Shown here in pieces: positions 9,971 to 45,977 of a DNA stretch of 64,000 nucleotides. The notes beneath the pieces are model-generated. The model ran no database searches. It was given only the letters and a program-made list of their open reading frames with translations, and was not told the origin of the DNA. A program made the position numbers and the translations under genes. Where the stretch lies: the NCBI RefSeq assembly GCF_009908265.2, contig NZ_JAAATX020000001.1, forward strand, positions 248,001 through 312,000, given 5' to 3'. Numbering within the stretch: position 1 is the stretch's first letter; every line of letters starts with the position of its first letter. Source of the stretch: Paragemmobacter amnigenus (GTDB lineage: Bacteria; Pseudomonadota; Alphaproteobacteria; Rhodobacterales; Rhodobacteraceae).

Positions 9971-10156
9971 CTTCGGCACGTCGCAGGTCCCCGTGCGCCC
10001 CTCCCCAAGGGCGATGTCGCCTTTTCTGTCCCCACGCGCGGAATGACAAGGGCCGATCGTCCGTTTTCGACCCATTCTCTGCCGAATCCGCCCTGCGCCC
10101 CCGTTGTGCCTGCGCGCCGGACGCGGCAAGGATGGGGGCGCATGAAGGAGACGCCG

Positions 10157-11353
10157 ATGCCCACCGATTTCGACACCACCAAGGCGCAGTTCGTCCTGCC
10201 CGAGGGGATCATCTACCTTGACGGCAATTCGCTGGGTCCCCTGCCCAAGGCGGCGGCCGCGCGGGTGGCGCGGACGGTCGAGGCGGAATGGGGCCAGATG
10301 CTGATCACCGGCTGGAACAAGGCCGGATGGATGGACCAGCCCGCGCGGATCGGGGACCGGATCGGGCGGCTGATCGGGGCGGAACCCGGCACGGTGGTGA
10401 TGGGCGACACGCTGTCGATCAAGGTCTATCAGGCGTTGGCCTCGGCACTGGAGATGAACCCGACGCGCCGCGTGATCCTGTCGGATACGGGGAATTTCCC
10501 GTCCGACCTTTACATGGCCGACGGGTTGGTGCGGACGCTGGGCAATGGCTACAGCCTGCGGACGGTGGCACCGGAGGATGTGCTGGACGCAATCGACGAC
10601 ACGGTCGCCGTCACCATGATCACCGAGGTGGACTATCGCACCGGCCGCCGCCACGACATGGGCGCGATCACGGCCAAGGCCCATGCGATGGGCGCGCTGT
10701 CGGTCTGGGATCTGGCCCATTCGGCGGGGGCGCTGCCTGTGGACCTTGCCGGTGTCGGCGCCGATTTCGCGGTGGGCTGCACCTACAAATACCTGAACTC
10801 AGGCCCCGGCGGCCCCGCCTTCATCTATGTCGCCCCGCGCCATGCCGATGCCGCGCGCCCCGCGCTTTCGGGCTGGCTGGGGCACGAGGCCCCCTTTGCC
10901 TTCGACCTTGACTACCGCCCCGGGCGGGGGATCGAACGGATGCGCGTGGGCACCCCGCCCGTGCTGCAACTCGCAGCACTCGAGGCGGCGATGGACATCT
11001 GGGACGGGGTCGACATGGCCGACCTGCGCGCCCGCTCGCTTGCCCTGACCGACCGCTTCATCGCGGGGGTCGAAGGGGCCTGCCCCGACCTGACCCTTGC
11101 CACCCCGCGCGACCATGCGCGGCGCGGCTCGCAGGTCAGCTTCCGCCACCCCGAGGGCTATGCCATCATGCAGGCGCTGATCGCCGCAGGCGTGATCGGC
11201 GACTTCCGCGCCCCCGACATCCTGCGCTTCGGCTTCACCCCGCTCTATATCGGATTTGACGAGGTCGACCGTGCGGTGGACATCCTCGCACGCATCATGG
11301 CGACGGGCGCGTGGGACCGGCCCGAGTTCAAAACCCGCGCGAAGGTCACCTGA
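10157..11353 (+). CDS. kynU: Kynureninase
   Basis: This PLP enzyme cleaves kynurenine to anthranilate and alanine in tryptophan breakdown. The 398-aa protein has IYLDGNSLGPLPKAAA near the N-terminus, a kynureninase hallmark. The PLP-lysine region reads FAVGCTYKYLNSGPGGPAFI and the C-terminus has APDILRFGFTPLYIGFDEV. I chose ATG 10157 because AAGGAG at 10145-10150 is ideally spaced; an in-frame ATG at 10142 would place that site inside the gene. Tryptophan dioxygenase follows, so the pair converts tryptophan to anthranilate. The arylformamidase step (kynB) is not seen here. Confidence 0.95.
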   Translation: MPTDFDTTKAQFVLPEGIIYLDGNSLGPLPKAAAARVARTVEAEWGQMLITGWNKAGWMDQPARIGDRIGRLIGAEPGTVVMGDTLSIKVYQALASALEMNPTRRVILSDTGNFPSDLYMADGLVRTLGNGYSLRTVAPEDVLDAIDDTVAVTMITEVDYRTGRRHDMGAITAKAHAMGALSVWDLAHSAGALPVDLAGVGADFAVGCTYKYLNSGPGGPAFIYVAPRHADAARPALSGWLGHEAPFAFDLDYRPGRGIERMRVGTPPVLQLAALEAAMDIWDGVDMADLRARSLALTDRFIAGVEGACPDLTLATPRDHARRGSQVSFRHPEGYAIMQALIAAGVIGDFRAPDILRFGFTPLYIGFDEVDRAVDILARIMATGAWDRPEFKTRAKVT

Positions 11354-11362
11354 CAATGCCCC

Positions 11363-11425
11363 GAATTTTCTGCGAAAATTCCGCCCACAGGCCCTACCGT
11401 CGCGACGGTCGGGTCGGGGCGGGAT
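11363..11425. repeat. Palindromic repeat (TTC-loop-GAA family) between kynU and kynA
   Basis: A perfect palindrome GAATTTTC-TGC-GAAAATTC at 11363-11381 is identical to the first unit in the crtA tail (44833-44851). An imperfect relative (GGATCCTTC-GCG-GAAAGATC) lies at about 11421-11440, and a small CCGTCGCGACGG palindrome lies between them. The remainder of the 214-base gap to kynA shows no ORF I can support. The kynA ribosome-binding site (GAGGAAAAG) is at its end. Confidence 0.8.
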
Positions 11426-11567
11426 CCTTCGCGGAAAGATCATCCCTCCCCCCGCTCTGCCGTCCGGCTGGCTGGGTCGCGCTCTGGCGGCGGATGGGGC
11501 AGCTTTCGGTACTCGATGCAAAGGATACCGCCTTTCCCTGACCTGAAACCCACAGAGGAAAAGCGAC

Positions 11568-25826: not shown

Positions 25827-25962
25827 CGAAGGATTTTCTGGCGAAAATCCTTCGTCACGATCCCTCTCGCGAAGGATCGGGGCCATCCCGCCCCGATCCG
25901 CCGCAACACCCCGATTTTTCGCCAGAAAAATCGCCCGCAAAATTCTTCGCAGAAGAATTTTG
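25827..25962. repeat. Array of TTC-loop-GAA palindromes between convergent genes
   Basis: Five palindromes fill the gap between the FAH gene and dxs. They are 25827-25854 (12-bp stem, loop TGGC), 25858-25879 (imperfect), 25874-25899 (10-bp GGATCGGGGC stem), 25912-25933 (9-bp CGATTTTTC stem, loop GCCA) and 25938-25962 (11-bp CAAAATTCTTC stem, loop GCA). The outer two flank the two stop codons at 6 and 3 bases and so probably act as terminators. The arms differ, yet all but one keep the TTC-loop-GAA centre. Confidence 0.85.
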
Positions 25963-25965
25963 CCC

Positions 25966-27879
25966 TCAGACCACCCGCAGGCCCGGCTTGGCCACCACGC
26001 GCCCCAGCGCCTGCCGCACCGTCGCCGCGATGTCCTTCGCCGTCAGCCCCGCCCATTCATACATCTGCGCCGGGCTGCCCTGATCGATGAACCGGTCGGG
26101 CAGCGTCATGGTGCGGATCGCGCGGCCCCTCTCCAGCCCGCCCGAATTCGCCAGATGGTGCAGCACCAGCGCGCCGAAGCCCCCCGTCGCCCCCGTCTCC
26201 AGCGTGACCAGCGCGGGGTGATGCTCCACCAGCCGGTCCACCAGCGCGCAATCCAAGGGCTTCGCGAACCGCGCATCGGCCACCGTCACCGAAATCCCCT
26301 CGGCCTCCAGCAACTCCGCCGCCGCCAGCGCCTCGGCAAGATGCGCGCCATAGGACAGGATCGCGGCCCCCGTCCCCTCGCGCAGGACGCGGCCCTTGCC
26401 GATCTCCAGCGGCACGCCGCGCGTGGGCAGGTCCACCCCCATCCCCTCGCCCCGCGGATAGCGGAAGGCGATGGGGCCTTCGTCATGGGCAATCGCGGTC
26501 GCGACCATATGGACCAGATCCGCCTCGTCCCCCGCCGCCATGACGGTGAAGCCCGGCAGGTTGGCAAGGAAGCCGATGTCGAAGGCCCCCGCATGGGTCG
26601 CGCCGTCCTGCCCCACCAGCCCCGCGCGATCGATGGCAAAGCGCACGGGCAGCCCTTGCAGCGCCACGTCATGAACGATCTGGTCATAGCCGCGTTGCAG
26701 GAAAGTCGAATAGATCGCGCAGACCGGTTTCAGCCCCGATGCCGCCATCGCCGCCGCCATGGTCACCGCATGCTGTTCCGCAATCCCCACGTCGAAGACC
26801 CGCGAGGCAAAGCGCCGCGCCATGATGTCCAGCCCCGTTCCCGACGGCATGGCGGCGGTGATCGCCACCACGCGCGGGTCGCGCGCGGCCTCGTCGGTCA
26901 GGGCATTGCCGAAGACCGACGTATAGGCCGGCGCGTTCGACTTGGCCTTGGCCTGCTCGCCCGTCAGGGGATCGAATTTCGACACGCCGTGATATTTGTC
27001 CGCGCTGCTCTCGGCGGGGGCAAAGCCCTTGCCCTTCACCGTCACGGCATGGATCAGCACCGGCCCCGTCGCCCGCGCCCGCGCCGCGCGCAGGGTGGCC
27101 AGCACCTGCCCCATGTCATGCCCGTCGATGGGGCCGACATAGGAAAAGCCCAGCTCCTCGAACAGCGTCCCGCCGCCGGGCATCCCCGTCACCAACTGCC
27201 GCGCCCGCCGCGCGCCGTCGCGCATCGGGCCGGGAAGGTGGCTCTCGAACTCCTCCGCCGCCGCCTTGAACAGCGCAAGCGGACCCTTGGCCGCGATTTC
27301 GTTGAGGTATTTCGACAGCGCCCCCACCGGCGGGGCGATGGACATGTCATTGTCGTTCAGGATCACGAACATCCGGCTGCCGGTATGGCCTGCGTGGTTC
27401 ATCGCCTCGTATGCCATGCCCGCCGTGATCGCCCCGTCCCCGATCACCGCGATGGTGTCGCCCACGGGCATCCCCATCTCGCGCCCGATGGCATAGCCCA
27501 GCGCGGCCGAGATCGAGGTCGAGGAATGCGCCGCCCCGAACGGGTCATATTCGCTTTCCGACCGCTTGGTGAAACCGGAAATCCCGCCCCCCTGCCGCAG
27601 CGTGGCCATCGCCTCGCGCCGTCCGGTCAGGATCTTGTGCGGATAGCACTGGTGGCCCACATCCCAGATCAGCTTGTCGCGCGGCGTGTCGAAGACGGCA
27701 TGGATCGCCACCGTCAGCTCCACCACCCCCAGCGACGATCCCAGATGCCCGCCGGTGCGCGACACGGTGTTGATCACCTCGCGCCGCAATTCGTGGGCCA
27801 GACGGGCAAGGTCGCCATCCCCCATCCCCTTCAGATCGGCAGGTCCGGCGACGCGGTCCAGAAGCGGGGTCGGGGTCAT
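25966..27879 (-). CDS. dxs: 1-deoxy-D-xylulose-5-phosphate synthase
   Basis: This TPP enzyme condenses pyruvate and glyceraldehyde-3-phosphate, the first and often limiting step of the MEP isoprenoid route that feeds carotenoids and the phytyl tail. The 637-aa protein has the TPP motif [18 protein letters not shown] ending in VILNDN, HVDGHD-like [17 protein letters not shown], and the C-terminal block [20 protein letters not shown] 27879 is used: GGAGG stands 5 bases upstream, whereas an ATG at 27891 would contain that site. It sits just after the puf terminator, the same gene position as in R. sphaeroides. Confidence 0.96.
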
Positions 27880-27895
27880 GGTGGCCTCCATATGC

Positions 27896-27930
27896 AAAAA
27901 AGTGCCGTGTAGGGTTGACCCACACGGCAC
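27896..27930 (-). terminator. Rho-independent terminator at the end of the puf operon, before dxs
   Basis: On the minus strand a 9-bp stem GTGCCGTGT/ACACGGCAC, extended by GGG/CCC around a TTGA-type loop with a one-base bulge, is followed directly by TTTTTT. It ends 16 bases before the dxs start codon. It would stop most puf transcripts and also control how much dxs mRNA is made by read-through. Confidence 0.9.
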
Positions 27931-28011
27931 CAGGTCCCTGTCGCCAACAGGAAGGGAACCGGGCTGTGGTTGCGCCCCGGATCCGGGCCGGCGTATGGCC
28001 CGAACGTCGCG

Positions 28012-28039
28012 GGACCGGGCGGGTCGAACCGCCCGGTCC
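28012..28039 (-). repeat. mRNA-stabilising hairpin candidate downstream of pufX
   Basis: A perfect 11-bp stem GGACCGGGCGG/CCGCCCGGTCC with a 6-base loop lies 7 bases after the pufX stop on the minus strand and has no T-run. Together with the terminator at 27896-27930 it forms a tandem hairpin end. Such 3' hairpins protect puf mRNA in Rhodobacter. Confidence 0.7.
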
Positions 28040-28046
28040 GATGGTG

Positions 28047-28274
28047 TCAGGCGACCTGCGTCTCGGCAGGGGTCGTGATCAGGAAGGCATTGGGATCGGG
28101 CGCCTGCTTGCTTTCCTCGGGCAGCAGAAGGCCGATGCCCCAGACCGCGAAGAGGATCGCCGCGATGGACAGCAGGAAGAGTGCCGCCCAACCCGCGCCC
28201 GCCATCATCTGATAGAGGGCCCAGGACCGCAGTGCCGAACCGGGTTTCTGCTGGAGATAGTTGTCAGACATCAT
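28047..28274 (-). CDS. pufX: RC-LH1 core polypeptide PufX
   Basis: This single-helix membrane protein opens the LH1 ring so that quinol can leave the reaction centre. The 75-aa product aligns with R. sphaeroides PufX around [16 protein letters not shown] (PufX: LRLWVAFQMMKGAGWA). One membrane helix at about 27-50 and the LLPEE...QAPDPN segment follow (LP...QAP in PufX). PufX varies greatly between species, so the match and the position right after pufM together make the call. Two consecutive ATGs (28274, 28271) follow GAGGAG inside the end of pufM, so either may be used. Confidence 0.9.
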
Positions 28275-30670: not shown

Positions 30671-30892
30671 TCAGGGCCGGAAGATGTTCGGCGTGATCGA
30701 CCCCGCCTCGCGCCAGGCGCGGGCAAGCGGTCCATGCACGGGAAGTCGGCGCTCCATCACCGTCTGGAGGATCCAGGCGGCAAGGGCGAAGGGGATCGCC
30801 ACAAGGAAGATCAGCGCGAAGTAGACGTAGAACTCGGCGCGCGGCGCGCGGTGGGCGTGATGCCCGCTTCCGCCTGCGGTATGATCGCTCAT
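30671..30892 (-). CDS. pufQ: PufQ, bacteriochlorophyll-related membrane protein
   Basis: The 73-aa protein has one membrane helix ([20 protein letters not shown]) and ends [20 protein letters not shown], a typical PufQ C-terminus. PufQ raises bacteriochlorophyll synthesis at a post-transcriptional level, perhaps as a pigment carrier. Its ATG overlaps the bchZ stop (ATGA), so pufQ is translationally tied to bchZ. The 160 bases after it, before pufB, contain the leader ORF at 30489-30596 and a small CCGCA/TGCGG hairpin. Confidence 0.92.
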
Positions 30893-32367
30893 GCAGTCCC
30901 TCCTTGTGTTGTCTTGGGTGGCGCGCCCCGCAGGGCTTCCACCGTTTCCTTGACCACCCGCTCCGCGCCCTGGTCGAGCGCGGCCTTCTCCGCCGCGTCA
31001 CGCAGGGTGCGCGCGGCAGAGATGCGGGTCAGCACCGGATGTTCGGAAACGATCCGGTCCAGTTCGGCCTGTGCATCGGCATCCCAGGGGAAGTCGCGGC
31101 GCAGGGTCGTGGGGGTTGCCGCCGCCGAGTCCATCTCGGACCCCAGCGGCAGGATGTGGAACAGCGCCTCGAACAGGCCGTTGCAGACCTCCTGCAGCAT
31201 CCACACGCATCCGGCATAGCCCATGAAGGGCGTGCCGGTATGGCGGCGGATGGCGGCACCGGGAAAGCTTGCCGCGATGAAATGCGGCTGCGGGCCATGT
31301 CCGGCCTTCAGCTCGGCCAGATACATCTTTTCGTTGATCGACCCCATCACCACCAGCGGACGATGCTGGCGGATCAGCGCGCGCACCTGTTCGTTGTTGG
31401 TCTTGGCCCCCGCCTGCCGCGCGACGGCAAAGGCGCAGGGCAGGCCCAGATCGGTTTCCAGATAGGCGCGGATGCCACGCGCATAGGTTTCATTCGCCAC
31501 GATGGCGAAATTCGCCGTGCCGAAGAAATCCTGCGTCACCGACCGCCACAGGTCCCAGACGGGCTTCAGCGTCGAATGCTTTTCCTGCGCGATGAAGGGC
31601 TCGGGGTCCAGCCCCAGCAGATCGCCCAGCTTGCGCAGGAATTTCGTCGTGCTGTCCAGCCCGATGGGCGCCTGCAGATAGGGCTTGCCCAGAACCTCGG
31701 CCAGCCCGCGCCCGAATTCGCGATACATGACGATGTTGACGTCAGCATTCACCAGATTGCGCATCTCGGCCAGATGCGCGCCCAGCGGCATGACCATGTT
31801 GACCTCGGCCCCGATCCCTTCGACCAGACGGCGGATCTCGTGCAGGTCCGACGCCATGTTGAAGGTGCCGTACATCGGGCCAAGGATGTTCACGCGCGGC
31901 CTGTCGCCCGCTTCACGCTTCTTCTCGACGGGCATCCGCCCCTTGGTCATGCCGAATTCGGTGAAGATCCATGTCATCGCGCGGTCCGCGCATTGCCATT
32001 GGTCCTCGTCGATGGTGCGGGGCAGAAAGCGCTGGATGTTCGTGCCCATCGGCGTGACGCCGCCGCCGATCATCTCGGCAATGGATCCCGTCACGACCAC
32101 CGCGGGCAGCGCAGGGTCAAGCGTCTTCCACGCCCGCTTCATCGCGCCTTCGGTGCCGTCGCGACCAAGTTCTTCCTCGCCCAGACCCGTCACCACGATG
32201 GGCAATTCATGCGGCGGCAGCGCGTCGGTGTAATGCAGGACGGAAGTCACCGGCAGGTTCTCGCAGCCCACGGGGCCGTCGATCACCACCTGCAACCCCT
32301 TGACGGCGCAGAAGGCATAGACCGCCCCCCAATATCCGCCCGCGCGATCATGGTCCTGGATCAGCAT
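30889..32367 (-). CDS. bchZ: Chlorophyllide a reductase subunit Z
   Basis: This is one half of the nitrogenase-like catalytic part (BchYZ) of chlorophyllide a reductase, which reduces the C7-C8 bond of ring B. The 492-aa protein opens [19 protein letters not shown], then [20 protein letters not shown] with a cluster-ligand Cys, and [23 protein letters not shown] 32367 is the true start. The frame continues upstream only through palindromic repeats and is not coding there. The puf promoter in Rhodobacter lies within the 3' part of bchZ. Confidence 0.96.
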
Positions 32368-32387
32368 CCCAGACCCTCCCCGCGCGC

Positions 32388-32500
32388 AGGATTTTTCTGC
32401 GAAAAATCCTGTCCCCGAATGTTCTGCGAACATTCGCCATCCCGGGCCACCCGATCCTTCGCAGAAGGATCGCTCCCAAGAATTTTCGCCGAAAATTCTT
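32388..32500. repeat. Array of four TTC-loop-GAA palindromes between bchY and bchZ
   Basis: The four units are 32388-32410 (AGGATTTTTC stem, loop TGC), 32416-32436 (CGAATGTTC, TGC), 32452-32472 (CGATCCTTC, GCA) and 32478-32500 (AAGAATTTTC, GCC). All stems are perfect, 9-10 bp. They fill the 142-base gap inside an otherwise tightly overlapping operon. Confidence 0.9.
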
Positions 32501-32509
32501 GCCCCCGGA

Positions 32510-34075
32510 TCATATCATCGCCTCCGCCGCAGCGGCCTTGGCGGCCTTTTCCAACTTCTTCTGATGCGCCGCCCGGAAATCCGGCCGCAGGTTCGGCGCG
32601 CCTTCCCAGATGCCCGCCGTATCGCCGGTGCCGACGCCTTCGAAAAACTCCTTCATCCCGTCCATGCGCGCCTTGTTCGCCATGGCGGCATTGACCACCT
32701 GCGCCAAGGACCCCGCCCCAGCCGGCCCCATCAGGGGCCGCGCCGAAATCAGGTTCGTGAAGTAAAGTGCCGGAATGGCCAGTTCCTTGGCCTTCTGCAC
32801 CACCGGGGTCGTCCCGATGGCAAGGTCAGGCCGGAACGCCTCTATCGCGGCGCAGTCATCCTCGAGGCTCGCGCGATACTTCACCGCCACGCCCTTGGAC
32901 TCGAGCCAGTCGCGATCCGCCTCGGACCATTCGTTCTTCGCGCAGGCCGTGCCCACATAGGCCAGATCCGCCCCGCTCTCGACCAAGAGCCGCGCGACCA
33001 GCAGTTCGGACCCTTCATAGCCCGACAGCGTGATCCGCCCCTTGACCGGATTCGCGGCCAGCGCGCCACGGATCGCGCCGCCAAAAGCGTTCTGCGCCGC
33101 CGCGACCTGCGCGGGGTTCACGCCATAAGCCTCGCCCATCGCCGCCAGCCAGGCCATCGTCCCGTCATATCCGACCGGCGCCGATCCCACGACCTTGCGC
33201 CCCGCTGCCTGAAACTCGCGGATCGCCGCCGTGTAGAAGGGATGGATCGCCGCCACCACACCGCAATCGAGCGCGGCATAAAGCTCGCGCCATTCGCGGC
33301 ACGGCACCACCGGCCCCGCGGCCAGCCCCATCGGCGCCAGCATCGCACCGATCATCATCGGATCCGCCGGGAACATCTCTCCCAGCAGCGCGACCGTCGG
33401 ACGATCCGACCGCCCGCGTTCCGGCGCGGCCACAGGCCCCGCCTCGATCTCGCGCCGGGCATAGTTCAGCATGGCACCGGCCAGCACGTCCTTGGCCTCG
33501 GCATGGGTCGGCACGCCGAAGCCCGGCACGTCGATCCCCACGATACGCACACCGTTGATCTCGTTCGGCAACAACTTCAGCGGCACGCCCGACGCGGTCG
33601 GAACGCAAAGGTTCGTCACCACCACCGCGTCATAACGCTCGGGGTCGGCCAGTTCATGCACCGCATCGCGGATGTCCTCGAACAGCTTGCCCGTCACCAG
33701 CGTCTCGGAATTGAACGGCACATAGCCCACCGACCGCCGCGCCCCGTAGAAATGGCTGACAAAGGTCAGGCCATAGACACAGCAGGCCGATCCCGACAGC
33801 ACCGTCGCCACCCGCCGCATCCGCAAACCCACGCGCAGCGACCCGAAAGCCGGGCACATGCTCTGCGGCTTGTCATGCGGACCTTGCGGGTAATCGGCGG
33901 CGTAACGGTCCAGCACCTCGGAATTCCCCGCCGCCCGCGCCGCAGCCTCCATCTCGGCAGCACCTGCATGGCACCCCATGCCATCCGCCACGACCGCCGC
34001 CGCACCCGCTTCGGGGCGCAGCCCCTCGGTCACGGGCGTTTCGGCGGTCTGGTCATAGCGGATCTCGCCAGCCAT
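32510..34075 (-). CDS. bchY: Chlorophyllide a reductase subunit Y
   Basis: This nitrogenase NifD/K-like subunit pairs with BchZ. The 521-aa chain has the cluster-binding region [20 protein letters not shown] with [20 protein letters not shown] and [20 protein letters not shown], containing conserved cysteines. [20 protein letters not shown] follows. ATG 34075 was chosen over the GTG immediately upstream (34078). The start overlaps the stop of a 23-codon ORF by one base (TGATG). Confidence 0.96.
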
Positions 34076-34146
34076 CACTTGGTCCCCTTCCGGGCCAGCG
34101 CGCGCAGCGCTTCTTCCATCTTTTCAAGGGCTTGCAGATCAAACAT
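34075..34146 (-). CDS. 23-residue ORF tiled between bchX and bchY
   Basis: ATG 34146 lies within the last codons of bchX (overlap 8 bases) and the frame stops at TGA 34075-34077, sharing one base with the bchY ATG. The product [20 protein letters not shown] ends GTK and would form an amphipathic, basic/acidic helix. It is out of frame with both neighbours. It may be a coupler that carries ribosomes from bchX to bchY, or a real micropeptide. I know of no named homologue. Confidence 0.4.
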   Translation of the reverse strand: MFDLQALEKMEEALRALARKGTK

Positions 34147-44121: not shown

Positions 44122-44976
44122 ATTTCCGTTACCAGCCTAAGCCTCTTCCGCTTCGACGGGTTCCTGCCGCGCCTCTGGGTGATCGGGCAGATGGGGGCTG
44201 CGCGGCTGGCGCTGCGGCGGGAACGGCGCGCGCGGTTCTGGAAACTCTGCGGCTCTGGCACGGGCGAGGGCTTCACCCCCCGCCCGAACTGGGGCGTCTG
44301 GGCCATCCTCGCCACCTGGCCGGACGAGGCGACGGCGCGCGCCGCCACGGCGCAAAGCCCGGTCTGGGCGCGCTGGCGCGCCCGCGCGGCGGAAAGCTGG
44401 ACGGTGTTCCTGTCCCCGCTCTCGGCCCGCGGCGCATGGGCGGGGGTCAATCCCTTCCTGCCCGACGTCCCCGCCCCCGCGCCCCAGGGTCCGCTGGCCG
44501 CCCTGACCCGCGCCACCGTCCGCCCTGCCCGCGCGCTGAAATTCTGGGACCGCGTCCCGTCGATTTCTGCCGTGATCGGCGCCGACCCCAACGTGGCCTT
44601 CAAGATCGGCATCGGCGAGGTGCCGCTCCTGCATCAGGTCACCTTCTCGATCTGGCCCGACACGGCCAGCATGGCCGCCTTCGCCCGCGGTGACGGCCCG
44701 CATGGCCGCGCGATCCGGGCCGTCCGCGACGGCAACTGGTTCGACGAAGAGCTCTATGCCCGCTTCGGCCTGCTGGGATCGGCGGGCACATGGGGCGGCA
44801 CGGACCCTTTGAACACCCTCGCGCAAGCGCATGAATTTTCTGCGAAAATTCCTGACCCCGATCCTTCTGCGAAGGATCGCGCCGCGACCACCCCAACCAC
44901 CAATCCCGAATTTTCGCAGAAAATTCGCCCCCAAGGATTTTCGCAGAAAATCCTTGCACTTACGGTGCCAAAATGA
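44122..44976 (+). CDS. crtA: Spheroidene monooxygenase, apparent ATT start and repeat-derived tail
   Basis: This oxidises spheroidene to spheroidenone with oxygen. The family N-terminus is plainly encoded (SVTSLSLFRFDGFLPRLWVI then GQMGAARLAL), and GGAGGG (44109-44114) stands 7 bases before the codon ATT at 44122, where an ATG is expected. No ATG, GTG or TTG is in frame upstream; the next candidate, GTG 44179, would delete the first strand. The core ends after about residue 237 (TWGGTDPLNTLAQAH). The last 47 residues (EFSAKIP..., EFSQKI..., GFSQKI...) are a translated palindrome array. The stop overlaps the bchI start (ATGA). Confidence 0.9.
   Translation: MSVTSLSLFRFDGFLPRLWVIGQMGAARLALRRERRARFWKLCGSGTGEGFTPRPNWGVWAILATWPDEATARAATAQSPVWARWRARAAESWTVFLSPLSARGAWAGVNPFLPDVPAPAPQGPLAALTRATVRPARALKFWDRVPSISAVIGADPNVAFKIGIGEVPLLHQVTFSIWPDTASMAAFARGDGPHGRAIRAVRDGNWFDEELYARFGLLGSAGTWGGTDPLNTLAQAHEFSAKIPDPDPSAKDRAATTPTTNPEFSQKIRPQGFSQKILALTVPK
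44833..44955. repeat. Array of four TTC-loop-GAA palindromes inside the crtA 3' end
   Basis: The four units are 44833-44851 (GAATTTTC stem, loop TGC), 44860-44878 (GATCCTTC, TGC), 44908-44926 (GAATTTTC, GCA) and 44933-44955 (AAGGATTTTC, GCA). All stems are perfect. The order of loops (TGC, TGC, GCA, GCA) mirrors the bchY-bchZ array. The open frame runs through all four units, so they are translated as the CrtA tail. Confidence 0.92.
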
Positions 44977-45977
44977 AGCAACCCTTCCCCTTCTCGGCCA
45001 TCGTCGGGCAAGAGGCCATGAAACAGGCCATGATCCTGACCGCGGTCGATCCCGCCATCGGCGGCGTCCTTGTCTTTGGTGATCGCGGCACGGGCAAATC
45101 CACCGCCGTCCGCGCGCTCGCCGCGCTCCTGCCGGAAATCGAGGCGGTCGAAGGCTGCCCCGTCAACGCGCCCACCCCCGCGCAGGTGCCCGACTGGGCG
45201 CAGGGCGCGACGGGGCGGATCGTCACCAAACCCACCCCCGTCGTGGACCTGCCGCTGGGCGTGACCGAAGACCGCGTCGTGGGCGCCCTCGACATCGAAC
45301 GCGCCCTGACGCGCGGCGAAAAGGCCTTTGAACCCGGCCTTCTGGCCCGCGCCAACCGCGGCTATCTCTACATCGACGAGGTCAACCTTCTGGAAGACCA
45401 CATCGTCGACCTCCTCCTCGACGTCGCCCAATCCGGCGAGAACGTGGTGGAACGCGAGGGGCTGTCGGTCCGACACCCCGCCCGTTTCGTGCTGGTGGGA
45501 TCGGGCAACCCCGAAGAGGGCGAATTGCGGCCCCAGCTTCTCGACCGGTTCGGCTTTTCCGTCGAAGTCACCTCGCCCCGCGACGTGGAAACCCGCGTCG
45601 AAGTCATCCGCCGCCGCGACGCCTACGAGACGAATTACGGTGCCTTCATGGAAACGTGGCGCCCGCAGGATGCCGCGCTGCGCGACCGCATCCTCGCCGC
45701 CCGCGCCGCCCTGCCCACGCTCAAGACCCCCAACACCGTGCTGCATGACTGCGCCAGCCTCTGCATCGCCATCGGCTCGGACGGGTTGCGCGGCGAACTC
45801 ACGCTGCTGCGCGCCGCCCGTGCGCTGGCCGCCTTCGAGGGGGACGATTCGGTGGGCCGCATCCATCTCAAGGCCGTCGCCCCCATGTGCCTGTCGCACC
45901 GCCTGCGCCGCGACCCGCTGGACGAGGCCGGATCGACCACCCGCGTCATCCGCGCCGTGGCCGAGGTGCTGCCCTGA
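44973..45977 (+). CDS. bchI: Magnesium chelatase ATPase subunit I
   Basis: This AAA+ subunit, with BchD, powers insertion of Mg2+ into protoporphyrin IX on BchH, the first committed step. The 334-aa protein has Walker A GDRGTGKST at about 36-44, Walker B in RGYLYIDEVNLLEDHIVDLL, and sensor regions around LVGSGNPEEGELRPQLLDRF. Its ATG overlaps the crtA stop, so it is coupled to crtA translation and driven by the PpsR-controlled crtA promoter. Confidence 0.97.
   Translation: MKQPFPFSAIVGQEAMKQAMILTAVDPAIGGVLVFGDRGTGKSTAVRALAALLPEIEAVEGCPVNAPTPAQVPDWAQGATGRIVTKPTPVVDLPLGVTEDRVVGALDIERALTRGEKAFEPGLLARANRGYLYIDEVNLLEDHIVDLLLDVAQSGENVVEREGLSVRHPARFVLVGSGNPEEGELRPQLLDRFGFSVEVTSPRDVETRVEVIRRRDAYETNYGAFMETWRPQDAALRDRILAARAALPTLKTPNTVLHDCASLCIAIGSDGLRGELTLLRAARALAAFEGDDSVGRIHLKAVAPMCLSHRLRRDPLDEAGSTTRVIRAVAEVLP

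Follow-up and report, generated by a model that had tools for sequence, protein, structure and literature searches.

RAYT transposases are thought to move the bacterial repeats called REPINs, and the double-hairpin elements of Allomyces mitochondria are a system comparable to the one analysed here. Several further kinds of hairpin repeat have been described. The REP and BIME elements of the GTAG and CGTC super-families are short, multicopy extragenic palindromes that lie near stop codons, form inverted groups and are patchily distributed between species (PMC3733652). REP families include units whose stems and loops differ from one another as well as dimers that join two different units, and the unlike dimer partners have been proposed to escape the removal of long hairpins (PMC3733652). 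REPINs carry inverted hairpins either side of a spacer (PMC3116915). In the alphaproteobacterial genus Bradyrhizobium, Br-REP1 lies where the 3' UTRs of convergent genes overlap, and its abundance varies strongly between relatives (PMC5082802). In E. coli, REPs located 15 nt or less from a stop codon lower translation, and REPs shield mRNA ends (PMC12306157, PMC5082802). Mitochondrial hairpin and double-hairpin elements are dispersed, their types differing by complementary substitutions (PMC2800124), and the palindromic elements of Rickettsia, mentioned in PMC3733652, lie in-frame within proteins.

We analysed a window of 64,000 nucleotides (G000:C1:248001-312000) from the 4.14-Mb genome of Paragemmobacter amnigenus (G000), together with further stretches of this genome and of its relatives. 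Throughout, family A denotes hairpins with a TTC..GAA tip, F a hairpin with the loop TGC or TGGC, and R one with the loop GCA or GCCA, which is an F hairpin on the opposite strand. The arrays share with REP and BIME elements the short, multicopy extragenic palindromes, the location near stop codons, the inverted groups and the patchy distribution, but differ from them in a four-hairpin FFRR order, in having no terminal GTAG or CGTC tag that we could see, in the near absence of wobble pairs and in arms that change in matched pairs. They resemble REPINs in the inverted hairpins either side of a spacer (compare the two-hairpin F..R elements of the genomes G007, G014 and G017), although PF01797 was not found above the cut-off in the 19 genus genomes. 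The likeness to Br-REP1 extends to host class, placement and uneven abundance, but Br-REP1 has three palindromes and another sequence (CCGGAATCTCGAGATTCCGG), and the section on it in PMC5082802 does not report matched arm change. In sponge mitochondrial elements the stems are conserved and the loops vary (PMC2800124), whereas here the stems vary in matched pairs and the loops of G000 are nearly fixed. One array of the window (array 3) lies in-frame within a protein like the Rickettsia elements, but as a C-terminal extension only and in the one gene in which this was seen. The original prediction had set the arrays apart from ordinary REPs on account of varying arms with a fixed tip; this distinction is not supported, because varying stems and unlike dimers are already known from REP families (PMC3733652), as is proximity to stop codons. 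We found no published account of a four-stem unit, of matched change this strong, of two tip families that share a layout or of a missing RAYT, and the literature searched, in which subscription journals are mostly uncovered, yielded no description of such arrays in Rhodobacteraceae.

Hairpin arrays in a photosynthesis gene region

Pfam domain matches in the window place the arrays within a photosynthesis gene region, which also contains an FAA-hydrolase-like gene. The genes next to the arrays are as follows.

25966-28191, minus strand: dxs-like gene (Pfam)
30889-32367: nitrogenase-type reductase subunit, bchB-like, with a PCP_red domain (Pfam)
32510-34078, minus strand: nitrogenase-type reductase subunit (Pfam), bchN-like by gene order
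44179-44976, plus strand: open frame without a Pfam match that reads through array 3 in its entirety, its end falling on the bchI-like start; by position we take it to be crtA
44973-45977: bchI-like Mg-chelatase ATPase (Pfam)

The top matches of the bchI-like protein are mostly from Rhodobacteraceae, the nearest named one being the MAG Rhodobacter sp. CACIA14H1 with 96% identity.

A script listing of the window returned 12 perfect TTC-loop-GAA hairpins whose arms measure 8-12 (1 at 11363, 3 at 25827-25963, 4 at 32387-32501 and 4 at 44833-44956), in agreement with the at least eleven perfect palindromes that had been predicted at these four places. Two further TTC-type hairpins, each with one mismatch, were found by eye. 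Counting palindromes of any kind with arms of at least 8, the window holds 35, compared with 9-26 (mean 13.8) in 20 shuffles. The hairpins are listed below.

11363..11381: lone F hairpin GAATTTTC-TGC-GAAAATTC, 9 nt 3' of the plus-strand gene 10142-11353
11423..11441: degenerate R hairpin GATCCTTC-GCG-GAAAGATC, one mismatch, found by eye
25827..25854: array 1 H1 (F), CGAAGGATTTTC-TGGC
25858..25879: array 1 H2 (F), CGATCCCTC-TCGC-GAAGGATCG, one mismatch, found by eye
25912..25933: array 1 H3 (R), CGATTTTTC-GCCA
25937..25963: array 1 H4 (R), GCAAAATTCTTC-GCA, 3 nt off the end of the dxs-like gene
32387..32411: array 2 H1 (F), CAGGATTTTTC-TGC
32416..32436: array 2 H2 (F), CGAATGTTC-TGC
32452..32472: array 2 H3 (R), CGATCCTTC-GCA
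32477..32501: array 2 H4 (R), CAAGAATTTTC-GCC, 8 nt off the end of the bchN-like gene
44833..44851: array 3 H1 (F), GAATTTTC-TGC
44859..44879: array 3 H2 (F), CGATCCTTC-TGC
44907..44927: array 3 H3 (R), CGAATTTTC-GCA
44932..44956: array 3 H4 (R), CAAGGATTTTC-GCA

In all three arrays the order is fixed, with TGC-type hairpins first and GCA-type hairpins second, so that the layout is identical on both strands; the R hairpin at 11423 is probably the partner of the F hairpin at 11363. At gathering score, Rfam gave no matches in the window or in six array-bearing stretches (120 kb). Array 3 forms an in-frame C-terminal tail of the gene preceding bchI in G000, G013, G003 and G014, and a degraded form of it does so in G012 (orthologs L083, L085, L088, L089 and L096); in nine other species, the gene preceding bchI stops 40-133 nt short of bchI.

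The same anatomy was found beyond the window. A full unit consists of two F hairpins, a spacer and two R hairpins, with unlike stems, and all 20 family A arrays with at least three hairpins in 864 kb of G000 fit this scheme (FFRR in 14, FRR in 3 and FFR in 3). Arrays of at least two hairpins with any tip number 22 in 464 kb of G000 and 0 in one shuffle. What the many family A copies have in common is the tip and the position classes of the stems, the arms varying in matched pairs. The position classes are clearest in G133, a genome of another genus, in which six arrays in six stretches all fit one stem order, namely GGATTTTC, G(C/T)GTTTTC-like, (G)ATCTTTC and AAGTCTTC-like, four of them forward and two reverse; these stretches were picked by the 13-mer TTTTCTGCGAAAA, which biases them toward the two classes ending in TTTTC. 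All four stems are perfect in 4 of the 6 arrays; L355 is without the fourth, the first stem of L359 has a changed tip, and the fourth place of L357 holds GCCGGGCTTTC. Fourteen other stretches, from four genera, contain lone hairpins or F..R pairs. In G000 the first class (GGATTTTC) and the third class (GATCCTTC/GATCTTTC) are recognisable, and a rule based on these two assigns a direction to 13 of 20 arrays (8 forward, 5 reverse; 7 unassigned by the rule).

Identical arms are rare within one array, both in family A of G000 (3 of 102 pairs, 10.3 expected, P 0.0036) and in a second family, B, described below (4 of 78 pairs, 8.7 expected, P 0.031), and are absent between same-orientation hairpins of one array (0/34 in A, 0/26 in B). 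We considered whether the arms of one array are required to differ, but the deficit is weak once hairpins are shuffled within position (P 0.054 for A, 0.125 for B) and mostly reflects the position classes. Much of the arm variety thus arises because each unit carries four unlike stems, and the remainder is matched change. A mechanism that freely rebuilds arms is not supported, part of the variety being due to the four position-specific classes.

Two-hairpin F..R elements in G007, G014 and G017 have an outer CCAAC..GTTGG; in those with both stems visible, one is GAATTTTC and the other GATTTTTC. The interval between widely separated F and R hairpins in G007 (L194) was searched for cargo, and no convincing gene was seen. 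Inspection by eye of the flanks of 111 A hairpins revealed no shared unpaired GTAG or CGTC tag at the hairpin foot; a subset carries CCAAC.

Pairing and covariation of the stems

Among 113 TTC-type tips in 864 kb of G000, five arm pairs are formed in 101, four in 5, three in 1 and fewer in 6, whereas five shuffles of the same 864 kb gave 92 tips, none with more than three pairs (half of the 864 kb was picked near known matches, which affects the density of tips but not their pairing). The 106 tips with four or five pairs therefore exceed shuffled sequence, and the matched arm changes proposed in the original prediction do keep the stems paired. The five arm positions beside TTC are filled by TA, CG, AT and GC in mixed proportions, with one T.G and six mismatches in 535 cells (107 sites with at least three pairs).

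Because the 107 sites were selected by their tip and three pairs, orthologous places were also examined.

A2, bchI (9 species): 87.4% of cells paired; 14 changed on both sides, compared with 4.9 in shuffles
A3, 3' of gene L176:18786 (family B, 10 species): 86.8% of cells paired; 23 changed on both sides, compared with a shuffle mean of 8.2; helices 3 and 4 are poorly aligned in the decayed rows G005, G012, G017 and G010, which are kept in the count
A4, 3' of gene L174:11608 (7 species): 96.6% of cells paired; 8 changed on both sides, compared with 2.9; two of the four helices enter the count, as the remaining two could not be aligned across groups, with G014 omitted (G013, G007 and G011 hold family B at this locus)

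In all three alignments, none of 500 shuffles reached the observed paired fraction, both-side changes or covariation score, these counts being of cells, so that one inherited event is counted several times. Sliding the partner by 1-3 columns lowered all measures, except that A4 pair types were 6 at one slide compared with 5. The number of further pair types was not above shuffles, being reached by 77 (A3), 491 (A4) and 35 (A2) of 500. In A4, a change from TA to GC in three related species is a matched double transversion, and matched changes at several positions within single stems were seen at orthologous loci. At the bchI locus, part of the constraint may be coding. Overall, the arms covary in orthologous loci as had been predicted.

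Matched stem change is usually taken to indicate a functional RNA gene; in the present case it occurs in dozens of copies of a small repeat of one genome and at orthologous places in up to ten species, alongside species in which the repeat is decaying. This combination makes an old question, whether selection or arm-to-arm copying keeps REP-like palindromes perfect, testable by comparison. The near absence of G.U suggests DNA-level copying or strong selection, because a purely RNA-level role would tolerate G.U. A route for the former is described, in which template switching repairs stems and keeps the loop (PMC8794818), and the palindromes could maintain themselves neutrally if they form hairpins while being replicated and one arm is copied onto the other by template switching or mismatch repair, with no benefit to the host. 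The almost purely Watson-Crick pairs of G000 and the multi-position changes within one stem fit such a process; the strong preference for gene 3' ends (see below) does not, and neither does the comparison of G006 with G018, so that we regard it as unlikely. In five arrays of these two genomes, a close species pair, changes affect 9 of 281 stem sites, 4 of 50 loop sites and 7 of 343 other sites, and none of the nine stem changes is compensated (one of the nine is in a terminator stem beside an array). We see no constraint on stems in this lineage; either pairing upkeep is lineage-dependent or matched changes arise slowly. In numbers that are small throughout, the ratio of tips with five pairs to those with four or three is 38/3 in G000, 36/5 in G007, 8/0 in G003 and 15/1 in G014, but 3/4 in G013, 3/2 in G006 and 4/1 in G018.

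The loops behave differently within and between genomes. In the window, TGC or GCA forms the loop of 9 of the 12 perfect hairpins, the remaining three loops being TGGC, GCCA and GCC, and in 864 kb of G000, 94 of the 106 perfect stems of 8 bp that end in TTC and have a 3-4 loop carry TGC, GCA, TGGC or GCCA. The constant TGC/GCA tip of the original prediction is therefore nearly right for this genome, three loops of the window excepted, but selection on the tip is not supported as a general rule. At the L174:11608 locus, the 12 paired hairpins that G010, G008 and G002 keep include a single TGC loop, the loops of the other 11 being different, and G005 and G006 are mixed. The loops there, in the sense of the L174 gene, are as follows.

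G000: TGGC, TGC, GCCA, GCGA
G005: ACG, GGA, GTG; one hairpin imperfect
G010: GTCC, GGG, GGAT, GGA
G008: GTAC, CGG, TGT, GGG
G002: GGAC, GGG, TTC, TGC
G006: AGC, GCA, GCG; one hairpin with a broken tip

The TTC-loop-GAA tip is thus the mark of a family. Family B has the loop ACG (F) or CGT (R) between TG and CA and the layout of family A; its 24 arrays with at least three hairpins are FFRR in 14, FRR in 7, FFR in 2 and RFF in 1 (for example L164:13098-13200, L168:12696-12807, L169:6710-6818 and L180:13309-13423). A third family consists of double hairpins with the tip CT-TCGA-AG and unlike arms (L163:6246, L171:15492, L177:12470 and L180:476) and also occurs in the bchN-bchB gap of G012 and G016; other species carry GGATGGGCG or GGTGCGTG hairpins in the corresponding gaps. 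Loops of the GNA and GNNA type are stable in DNA. Most R-type loops fit this type, but four triloops that we tried gave the same modelled energy and family B is a misfit, and the idea was not relied on. The nearly fixed loop of G000 above varying arms, and the sense orientation of the F loop in 45 of the 47 A hairpins near stop codons, would also suit recognition of the loop by an RNA-binding protein, for which the stem would only present it. Such a target is very unlikely, given loops that change at one locus with the stems still paired, a family B of the same layout with another tip, and almost no G.U pairs.

Arrays at the 3' ends of genes

In 464 kb of G000, a sample not picked for matches apart from the window itself, hairpins of families A or B lie in 10 of 40 convergent gaps, compared with 7 of 182 codirectional gaps and none of 53 divergent gaps (Fisher P about 1e-4 for each comparison). 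By our own gene calls in stretches of 14 genomes, 64 family A elements are found in codirectional gaps (32), in convergent gaps (23), inside called genes (6), in divergent gaps (2) and at an edge (1), the same stretches, partly picked for matches, having 715 codirectional, 156 convergent and 214 divergent gaps of at least 30 bp. Among hairpins between -10 and 30 nt from a 3' end, 45 of 47 in family A and 22 of 24 in family B have the F loop on the sense strand, and 28 of the 47 stop-proximal A hairpins lie 10 nt or less from the stop codon. In convergent gene pairs, each gene ends in one hairpin pair. The sense bias at gene ends is largely due to the F..R layout, which forces it; of the lone A hairpins located in codirectional gaps, no more than 11 of 18 are sense-F, and some of the others are partners of hairpins more than 150 nt away.

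A location between convergent genes and close 3' of stop codons would be expected of bidirectional transcription terminators. We consider this role improbable, because the stems are A/T-rich and weak (-4 to -6 kcal/mol for 8-bp stems) with no T run 3' of the hairpins, T-run terminators are equally frequent at convergent ends with an array (8/52) and without one (19/124), and full arrays also occur in codirectional gaps, including the one that separates the bchN-like gene of the window from the bchB-like gene. In G003, a run of about 50 C lies close 3' of an F hairpin (L217:2540-2620) and may be an assembly artefact.

The reading to which we give roughly even credence is that of a four-stem REP-like unit in which pairing is kept as the hairpins 3' of the stop codon matter to the neighbouring genes, arm-to-arm copying being a likely source of the matched changes. 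The anatomy, the near-perfect pairing, the covariation in orthologs, the placement and the presence or absence between species are observed, whereas the RNA-level role, the way in which copies spread and the force that maintains pairing are inferred. The element would be a dispersed, structured repeat of REP/BIME kind, FFRR with unlike stems, close 3' of stop codons, and the matched changes of its stem letters would come about via selection on the hairpins, template switching during replication, or both. Its likeliest effect would be on mRNA 3' ends, where a two-sided hairpin barrier may shield or position the RNA end of the preceding gene. Several observations speak against this reading: the layout-forced sense bias; the near absence of G.T (1/535), which an RNA-only role would not demand; the canonical T-run terminator that adjoins the array at L212 and at L175; units that are oriented both ways relative to the preceding gene; stems that in G006 and G018 change as fast as their surroundings, none compensated; and further pair types no higher than in shuffles.

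Distribution, decay and spread between species

The 13-mer TTTTCTGCGAAAA occurs in 31 copies in G000 (reversed control 0) and in 0-109 copies across 19 genus genomes. An impression from 61 genomes that the repeat is limited to the genus was overturned by a larger family sample, in which 94 of 295 genomes contain the 13-mer, mostly in 1-4 copies (reversed control 0-2). Rich genomes are G119 (63), G112 (28), G133 (27), G315 (23), G257 (20), G207 (11) and G222 (9). Of the 19 genus genomes, 18 contain a 15-mer of family B, which also occurs in 2 of 42 others, once each. A 46-base query gave no match in a plasmid collection, and within 80 bchI loci of named genomes (3.5-9.5 kb each) we found no TTC-tip hairpin with arms of at least 7.

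Arrays are present at some orthologous sites and absent at others, and, of the features of a MITE, an inverted layout is present. The bchI site carries a whole or decayed array in G000, G013, G003, G001, G007, G006, G018, G005 and G014; G012 has a degraded one, G011 a remnant, and G008, G010, G002, G016 and G009 have none. The family B array of L181 is clear in 5 of 18 orthologous places (G000, G003, G007, G011 and G013). In the few places examined, we recognised neither a target duplication nor a clean empty site.

Sites with and without an array, the patchy amplification (0-109 copies within the genus, high counts in a few scattered genera), two-sided hairpin ends like those of REPINs and a tip nearly fixed within a genome would all suit a selfish single-strand DNA element, in which a putative enzyme recognises the hairpins by their tips (TGC/GCA or ACG/CGT) and moves the unit in the manner of RAYT and REPINs, gene 3' ends being the least harmful landing sites. 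We hold this to be doubtful, given the loops that change at one locus with the stems still paired, the missing target duplications and clean empty sites in the few places examined, and the lack of a Y1 transposase above cut-off in the 19 genus genomes. The RAYT-type transposase suggested originally was sought as PF01797, which was above cut-off in 0 of the 19 (one weak match below cut-off, in G008), with controls matching in 5 of 14 genomes; RAYT as the mover does not fit, and a tip-reading enzyme or protein of another kind may be involved.

With the four-stem unit that we favour, Rhodobacteraceae gain a REP-like system in which no RAYT was detected; it offers good natural material for studying the spread of such repeats and their effects on the preceding genes. 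More tentatively, the arrays may represent a distinct bacterial class, a polar unit made up of four differing stem-loops whose loops depend on the family (TGC/GCA or ACG/CGT); this unit would spread without RAYT, undergo matched double changes in its stems, act on the RNA ends of both neighbour genes and decay where a putative keeper is lost. Exact A hairpins were also observed in viral contigs, one in each of six stretches (L340-L345).
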